Below, in pieces: positions 56,232 through 57,702 of a DNA stretch of 64,000 bases. The stretch is from Streptantibioticus silvisoli. GTDB lineage: Bacteria; Actinomycetota; Actinomycetes; Streptomycetales; Streptomycetaceae. Position 1 is the first letter of the stretch; every line of letters starts with the position of its first letter. The translations under genes were made by a program, and so were the position numbers. The stretch lies in the NCBI RefSeq assembly GCF_027947535.2, contig NZ_JAAGKO020000001.1, positions 62,001-126,000 of the forward strand, written 5' to 3'. The notes under the pieces were generated by a model. The model saw only the letters and a list, made by a program, of their open reading frames with translations. It searched no databases and was not told the origin of the DNA.

Positions 56232-56322
56232 TGCCTCGCCTTGTCTTGCCTTGCCTTCTTTTACCCTGCCTCGCCTTGTCTTGCCTTGACTTGTCTTGCC
56301 TCGCCTGACTTGCCTTGCCCCG
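56232..56322. repeat. cttgc/ccttgtcttg pentamer-type repeat
   Basis: Ninety bases made of cttgc, cttgt and ctcgc pentamers, with a marked pyrimidine bias on the plus strand. It lies about 95 bases upstream of the PL7 start, on whose strand it is the purine-rich gcaag type. Confidence 0.8.
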
Positions 56323-56444
56323 CAGTGCGTGGCGGGCGCTGTCAGCGGGACCGACGCCGAGGTGGCCGGGTTCGGCGGGTCGGAGGTCGAAGAGTTCGCT
56401 GCCGTGGCGGGTCGGGCGGGGGCGGCGGTGAACGCGTGGATGGC

Positions 56445-56525
56445 GCGGTGAACGCGGTGAACGCGGTGAACGCGGTGAACGCGGTGAACGCGGTGAACGC
56501 GGTGAACGCGGTGAACGCGGTGAAC
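56445..56525. repeat. Nine tandem copies of gcggtgaac
   Basis: Nine perfect 9-bp units without interruption (81 bp). Because the period is a multiple of three, one frame per strand reads through as Asn-Ala-Val or Arg-Val-His repeats, but no flanking coding signal supports translation. Perfect identity indicates recent slippage expansion. Confidence 0.95.
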
Positions 56526-56709
56526 GAATTCGACGGGAACGCCGAAAGCCACGCGTGCGAACTGAGCGCTAACGGGCGGGAGTTCGGGTCCGGCAGCGGC
56601 AGGTGCTCGGCACGCTCACGCAGAAGACAACCGAACGGCGGCCGCGACAGCCGCCGGAGTCACACTGCGGCGGCCCGGCGAGGTCGTCCCCGCCGGGTCG
56701 CCGGGGCGT

Positions 56710-56889
56710 TCACCAGCTGCCGCTGGCGCCACCGCCGCCGAAGCTGCCGCCACCGAAGCCGCCGAAGCCGCCGGTGTCAGCCGCCGCGGGACCCGCGAGC
56801 AGGGCAACGCCGACCACCGCGGCGGTCAGAGCGAGAGCGGCGGAAGCCGCCACCCGACGGACGCGGCGGGGCTGAGTCTGCTTACGCAT
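56710..56889 (-). CDS. Small secreted Gly-rich peptide, copy 1
   Basis: A 59-aa secreted peptide. MRKQTQPRRVRRVAASA gives the basic n-region, LALTAAVVGVALLAG the core, and PAAA just before DTGGF the likely cleavage site. The mature peptide would be about 22 residues, almost only Gly, Phe, Ser and Ala (GGFGGFGGGSFGGGG), ending in Trp. The ATG has AGGAG five bases upstream. It differs from copy 2 by a single residue of the mature part (Phe for Ser), and the upstream sequence is duplicated too. No modifying enzyme is adjacent. Function unknown. Confidence 0.75.
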   Translation of the reverse strand: MRKQTQPRRVRRVAASAALALTAAVVGVALLAGPAAADTGGFGGFGGGSFGGGGASGSW

Positions 56890-57071
56890 GCGTACTCCTA
56901 TCGGTGATCAACAGGGAAACCGTGAAACCGGTTCCGGCTGCGCGAGTATCGCAGCGGGCGACGGCCCCGTGGAATACACGACGCCAACTCCCCTGGCGGC
57001 ACCGCAGCTTCCTGCCACGGGCGCCGCCCCGGCCCGCCCTGCGGCGGCCCCGGACGCGGCGCCCGGACGGA

Positions 57072-57251
57072 TCACCAGCTGCCGCTGGCGCCGCCGCCAC
57101 CGCTGCTGCCGCCACCGAAGCCGCCGAAGCCGCCGGTGTCAGCCGCCGCGGGACCCGCGAGCAGGGCGACACCGACCACCGCGGCGGTCAGAGCGAGAGC
57201 GGCGGAAGCCGCCACCCGGCGAACGCGGCGGGGCTGAGTCTGCTTACGCAT
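57072..57251 (-). CDS. Small secreted Gly-rich peptide, copy 2
   Basis: A 59-aa peptide with the same leader as copy 1 and a mature part reading GGFGGFGGGSSGGGG near its middle, again ending in Trp and stop. The start lies 362 bases from the copy 1 start. Ribosome binding site (AGGAG) and about 30 bases before it are the same, and further upstream the gagtatcgcag and cgcagcttcctgccacgg words are shared, so gene and promoter were duplicated together. High conservation of the protein against a diverging spacer suggests selection. Confidence 0.75.
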   Translation of the reverse strand: MRKQTQPRRVRRVAASAALALTAAVVGVALLAGPAAADTGGFGGFGGGSSGGGGASGSW

Positions 57252-57702
57252 GCGTACTCCTATCGGTGATCAACAGGCACAAGACTGTCGTGCCGCCCGG
57301 AGTATCGCAGTGGGCGCCGCCGCGAGGAATACGCATCGTCGGATCTCCGCTCCCGGGCGCAGCTTCCTGCCACGGCGCGGGGCCGGCGGCGGGTTCGGGC
57401 GGCGGGTTCGGGCGGCGGGTTCACGTGACGGGTTCCCGTGGTGGCGGCGGCGATTCGGAAGACGGCGCGGTGGCGCACGTCCCCGGAGGTTCAACTCCGA
57501 CTGTGAGGACTCCGCGCAACGCCGGGCCCCCTCGTGGGCCTCGGCAATCACCACCAGCCGCGACGGGGTCAACTCCCTACGCACAACGCAGGTTGGCCGA
57601 GAGCCCGATCCCGTCCACCGCCCTCGCGACCATCACCGGGGGCCGTCCACCTCACCGGTCGGCGTCACCGTTCAGCATCGGACAGCGCCGGCCGCAAGCC
57701 GT
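57252..57702. other. Spacer with three 13-bp repeats
   Basis: A 451-base gap between the second peptide gene and the LysR gene end. Three 13-bp units of cggcgggttcggg lie at 57387-57425. The first 100 bases carry the duplicated upstream region of the peptide genes. No other gene is supported. Confidence 0.5.

Follow-up and report, generated by a model that had tools for sequence, protein, structure and literature searches.

Two small tandem genes in the window (the whole stretch of 64,000 nt that was analysed) were found to encode peptides in which a signal-peptide-like leader runs directly into the type of C-terminal end carried by TPM-domain proteins (PF04536), which suggests the tail of a TPM protein now working on its own. 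In the full reading, which is put forward tentatively and could well be right, the peptide is an exported C-terminal strand of TPM type that stands by itself and acts as a ligand. A natural gene for the TPM end alone points to that end as a functional unit, and the 22-residue peptide may serve as a probe for seeking the binding partner of the TPM tail. A literature search that covered few subscription journals found no paper on a stand-alone TPM tail and no described function for the near-invariant Gly-rich, Trp-terminated TPM end.

Both genes, P0001 and P0002, consist of 59 codons on the minus strand, start with ATG and have AGGAG 5 nt upstream (Table 1). As the earlier note had stated, they are nearly identical, the sole residue difference being F50 in P0001 vs S50 in P0002, and each combines a signal-peptide-like leader with a Gly/Phe-rich mature part of about 22 residues and a final Trp. 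The 37-residue leader, identical in the two peptides, is followed by the 22-residue end DTGGFGGFGGGS[S/F]GGGGASGSW; the signal peptide (residues 1–37, cut between AGPAAA and D) was assigned by eye. Seven codons differ between the two genes, comprising six synonymous changes and one replacement (dN 0.016, dS 0.127). The upstream regions had been described as duplicated together with the genes, and this holds for about 26 nt of near-identity; farther out only matching patches are found, e.g., CCGTGGCAGGAAGCTGCG and CTGCGATACTC. The pair is flanked by an alginate lyase gene (PF08787) on one side and a LysR gene on the other. The GC3 of the peptide genes (0.80) is below that of the two adjoining genes (0.95 and 0.92), which was counted against real coding and against the favoured reading. 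Scans of the peptide-gene region found no sigma-70 promoters and no terminators. When the 64-kb window was scanned for short ORFs whose products combine a basic N-terminus with a hydrophobic run and a Gly-rich end, P0001 and P0002 alone were retrieved.

Table 1. Positions in the window of the two peptide genes, their parts and the duplicated blocks.
Feature	Position	Strand	Description and basis
Peptide gene copy 2 (P0002)	57072..57251	-	59 aa, ends ...DTGGFGGFGGGSSGGGGASGSW; ORF, homologues G030/G004, tail profile 45.2 bits
Peptide gene copy 1 (P0001)	56710..56889	-	59 aa, ends ...DTGGFGGFGGGSFGGGGASGSW; ORF, tail profile 44.7 bits, codon comparison with copy 2
Leader, copy 2	57141..57251	-	residues 1-37: basic N-terminus, hydrophobic run, AGPAAA then D; by eye
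Leader, copy 1	56779..56889	-	residues 1-37, signal-peptide-like, read by eye
TPM-type tail, copy 2	57072..57140	-	residues 38-59 and stop codon; last 20 aa as in L059, L144 and L245 TPM tails
TPM-type tail, copy 1	56710..56778	-	residues 38-59 and stop codon; last 20 aa as in L039, L138 and L139 TPM tails
AGGAG ribosome-binding site, copy 2	57257..57261	-	sequence
AGGAG ribosome-binding site, copy 1	56895..56899	-	sequence
Duplicated block, copy 1	56701..56915	.	215 nt, 94% identity to 57063-57277
Duplicated block, copy 2	57063..57277	.	215 nt, 94% identity to 56701-56915

A degenerate DNA pattern describing the tail retrieved at least 118 stretches from public genomes. Among the matches listed, all 118 were in frame and ended in ...GGGA[ST]GxW, an ending mostly forced by the pattern. 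The TPM domain, whose presence the pattern does not force, was detected in all 107 ORFs that reach 150 aa among the matches listed; left out were the other 11 stretches, in which the ORF, counted from the first start codon, falls short of 150 aa through being cut off, broken or masked. The motif with Trp was also shown to end 13 of 14 complete short TPM proteins of the phylum that were chosen by domain and without the pattern (2 cut-off loci, 2 weak matches and 11 long ORFs that continue beyond the stretch being left out), and 5 of 6 large plasmid-borne TPM proteins from Pseudomonadota, Bacillota and Bacteroidota, likewise chosen without it; the sixth, from Parabacteroides, ends in SISRF. The last 20 residues of each window peptide were identical to those of three TPM proteins (Table 1), among them for P0002 a protein of genome G803, which belongs to the same class as the window, and the identical tails include ones from other phyla. 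Both peptides thus possess the C-terminal linker and strand ending in GGG[AS]SGxW seen in tailed TPM members, an end that lies outside the Pfam definition of PF04536. Plain BLASTP of P0002 against the G803 TPM protein did not align the tails, a point against the favoured reading.

A 16-position tail profile was built from 20 TPM tails gathered without the pattern. Besides the two window peptides (scores in Table 1), the profile recognized two peptides from another genus described below, with 41.4 and 39.7 bits. The next-best score among 3,640 distinct ORF C-termini, taken from the window and from loci mostly of the window's family, was 11.9 bits, and several of the runners-up were TPM proteins from the family itself. 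For each of the four peptides, 100,000 shuffles were made, and not one reached the score of its own peptide. The tails are low in complexity, however, which counts against the favoured reading, and for P0002 the top-scoring shuffle came within a bit (44.4 vs 45.2 bits). Identification of the tail as a TPM C-terminus is, on this sequence evidence, well supported, and it is quite probable that peptide tails and TPM tails are truly linked, by descent or by shared function.

Chance resemblance of low-complexity ends is the main rival. On that account, the products would be Gly/Phe-rich exported structural or adhesive peptides, their likeness to TPM proteins coming from a shared flexible Gly stretch and a terminal aromatic residue. 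The low complexity of the composition speaks for such convergence, as does a 97-aa protein of genome G261 (L011, 1492–1785), in which the leader is directly followed by GGGGSSGGGGASGGW and then by a Pro/Cys-containing end; a TPM-tail-like string thus also occurs away from a C-terminus, which counts against the favoured reading. The residue order of all four peptides matches as well as their composition, however, as the shuffles show; the other C-termini among the 35 with at least seven Gly in the last 16 residues score at most 12 bits, and no other gene matched in the family scan. Convergence is regarded as possible but rather unlikely. If it should nevertheless apply, the peptides would be a warning of how exact low-complexity tails can get.

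The same gene layout with a final Trp was found in 2 of 393 other genomes of the window's family, G030 and G004. Both belong to genus g5, another genus of the family, and gave the clear peptide matches among 61 relatives; within g5 the stand-alone peptide is present in two of four genomes, the two others being without it. When 394 family genomes were searched with an HMM built from the four sequences, E values were 1e-31 to 5e-28 for the four peptides and 8e-6 or higher for all others. Matches at E <=0.001 were obtained in 36 of the 394 genomes, all but three of them weak and mostly covering the leader and Gly stretches, a spread that would fit convergence; the weak Gly-rich matches (33 of the 36 genomes) were set aside, those of L004–L007, L011 and L032 being translated.

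The g5 genes have a diverged leader (MTAKTLRKRLGR...) but retain the tail GGFGGGSSGGGGATG[G/S]W and the stop. Conservation thus lies in the tail and not in the leader motif MRKQTQPRRVRR, which the earlier note had suggested as a search target together with a Gly-rich tail. The expectation that homologues would keep the reading frame was borne out, as the G030 and G004 genes differ by 10 synonymous codon changes, one replacement and one 9-nt in-frame indel. As judged from these codon comparisons, the excess of silent changes in both gene pairs is a sign of purifying selection, and the two small genes are to be regarded as real, conserved coding genes. No syntenic gene was shared between the window genome (G000) and G030 or G004, in which only two and one weak protein matches, respectively, were obtained among the neighbours. 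That the neighbouring genes are not common to the two genera counts against the ligand reading and would fit convergence. A candidate promoter shared upstream of all four genes, CTGCGATRCTC, was rejected, since equal ungapped matches (score >=10) occurred in 11 of 60 Markov shuffles. By tblastn in genome contigs, 591 stretches matched a pattern and none was confirmed as a close relative, in a confirming step that probably masks Gly-rich sequence; tblastn of plasmids with P0002 gave no match.

A slightly looser tail pattern gave four matches in three of 394 family genomes, all of them the stand-alone peptides. The same pattern found six further genomes among 396 of the phylum (four TPM proteins by reading, one contig end and one fragment) and three further genomes among 394 of the class, all TPM. 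Controls with the reversed pattern gave one match in the 394 family, one in the 396 phylum and two in the 394 class genomes. Across these scans, every complete readable gene with the tail is thus a TPM gene, except for the four stand-alone genes. Four pattern matches could not be clearly read as TPM proteins: the ORF of L187 runs off the contig end, the frame in L190 is short and lacks a usual start codon, the viral L202 matches the pattern out of frame, and L203 contains the end only.

Neither PF04536 nor LemA (PF04011) was detected in the window genome. Among 121 genomes of the family, TPM is present in 31 (22 in genus g7, 8 in g10 and 1 in g2) and absent in 90. The family TPM proteins resemble the peptides in having a Gly-rich C-terminus with SFGGGG, but all eight that were read (L193–L200) end in ...GGRF or ...GGGRF instead of Trp and score at most 12 bits with the tail profile. 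Their shared end, ...GSFGG(G/S)(G/D/E)TRGR.GGGRF or similar, is, by its sequence, a second type of TPM tail with a terminal aromatic residue.

The peptide genes may descend from a TPM gene that lost an internal segment, and they might then be no more than a remnant, a leader and tail left behind without present function. The order of leader and then tail is just what would remain if a TPM gene lost its middle part, and the genome has no detectable TPM gene. A remnant is nevertheless improbable, as silent changes outnumber replacements in each gene pair (6 to 1 and 10 to 1), frame and stop are retained in two genera, and the TPM proteins of the family carry the other tail.

AlphaFold models of two TPM proteins placed a confident beta-strand at the end of the tail. 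In L038 (107 rows) the terminal strand comprised residues 264–269, with pLDDT 87 in the last block, and in L059, which shares its last 20 residues with P0002 (65 rows), residues 262–270, with 83 and 96 in the last blocks; the Gly linker ahead of the strand was disordered in both (pLDDT <50). Both alignments consisted of proteins selected for having the tail, which counts against the favoured reading, and the L059 model used 65 of the 107. Since a DSSP strand requires a partner, the models suggest that the tail joins the sheet of the TPM domain and pairs with it. For BA41 of Bizionia argentinensis (PDB 5anp), the crystal chain in Foldseek/VIA-align comprises residues 34–178 and the deposited sequence includes the tail, which seems not to be resolved in the crystal. 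The TPM fold was shown to resemble subunits of mycobacterial respiratory supercomplexes (Z 12.3–12.7).

Full-length TPM proteins begin with a signal peptide, which is followed by the TPM domain, one or more membrane helices, the Gly linker and the strand; the last is predicted to add to the folded protein as a beta-strand. The peptide genes would correspond to the leader fused directly to a stand-alone tail, i.e., a flexible Gly/Phe linker followed by the strand GGGG-A-S-G-S-W. The peptides are, judging by their leaders, probably exported, and may be cleaved and secreted; with neither the TPM domain nor membrane helices, each would leave the cell as an unattached strand of about 22 residues, which could bind a TPM-like partner and add to its fold in trans. 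One candidate for this partner is a distant TPM-fold subunit, e.g., of the actinobacterial respiratory supercomplexes. The more specific proposal, that organisms which have lost the full-length protein use the former C-terminal strand as a diffusible donor strand plugging in trans into a TPM-like fold, is rather unlikely; if true, the conserved TPM tail would be a separable ligand.

The predicted topology of TPM proteins conflicts with exported-looking peptides. By a simple hydropathy count in the 107 listed matches, one helix follows the TPM domain in 66, two in 31, three in 6 and none in 4, and with one helix in most of them, most TPM tails are predicted to be cytoplasmic. The conflict would be removed if the tail normally meets the small second TPM protein (TPM2), or if it works outside the cell. 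At 59 of the 112 loci that contain a TPM ORF, a further, untailed TPM-like ORF was present nearby, some of these being fragments or overlapping frames. Two of the three plasmid-borne TPM2 proteins that were read start without a signal peptide, and the third (L238) begins hydrophobic. The TPM2 proteins, encoded beside LemA and tailed TPM genes, have the domain without the tail (all three read), the reverse of the peptides, and are possible receptors of such a tail.

A released peptide might also disturb the TPM/LemA envelope system of neighbouring bacteria as a decoy or weapon, its producer being immune for lack of TPM. The failure to detect TPM and LemA in the window genome and the identity with TPM tails of other phyla are what this would predict. 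Yet no immunity, export or regulatory gene was seen beside the peptide genes, a peptide outside the cell would not easily compete with tails that are mostly predicted to be cytoplasmic, and many members of the family (90 of 121 genomes) have no TPM. Such a role is hence thought quite improbable.

TPM proteins are known from bacteria and plants. Whether they act as phosphatases, as ATPases or as assembly helpers of membrane complexes is under debate, and one paper proposes a chaperone-like role in membrane-complex assembly (PMC11237479). Compared with TPM-domain proteins such as BA41, the peptides have in common a start that, by eye, is signal-peptide-like and the C-terminal Gly linker with the GGGGASGxW end, the last 20 residues being identical in several TPM proteins, but they lack the TPM domain and the membrane helix after it. 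With Pfam up to E 10, no PF04536 hit was obtained for P0001 or P0002, which at 59 aa are too short for the domain, and no LemA or second TPM gene was found beside the peptide genes.

Chaplins and SapB of streptomycetes are small secreted actinomycete peptides. The earlier note had considered a surface coat of aerial hyphae, an aggregation signal or an antimicrobial, and the peptides are indeed small, Gly-rich and exported-looking. Searches of Pfam, NCBIfam and PHROGs, however, gave weak hits only, with no chaplin or other match pointing to such functions (for the chaplin domain, no Pfam hit up to E 10). Lanthipeptides such as SapB have core Cys and lanthionine precursor features, whereas P0001 and P0002 have no Cys or such features, and their mature part contains one Asp and zero basic residues. 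A coat or antimicrobial peptide is thus very improbable.

Some further features were observed in these regions. Between the alginate lyase gene and copy 1, a tandem repeat of a 9-base unit, CGCGGTGAA, is present at 56444–56526 (9.2 copies, 100% matches), and a degenerate repeat of the 5-base unit TGCCT lies upstream of the alginate lyase gene at 56232–56319 (17.8 copies, 69% matches). In the two g5 loci (L002 and L003, around 1100–1420), a small gene just 3′ of the peptide gene encodes a product with a single membrane helix and, after it, a stretch rich in Cys (CANCGHLPADH...). Past the TPM stop in L243–L245, a frame with a GTG start, read by eye, seems to share DNA with the last TPM codons and runs on as a small protein, which is similar in G800, G820, and G803.
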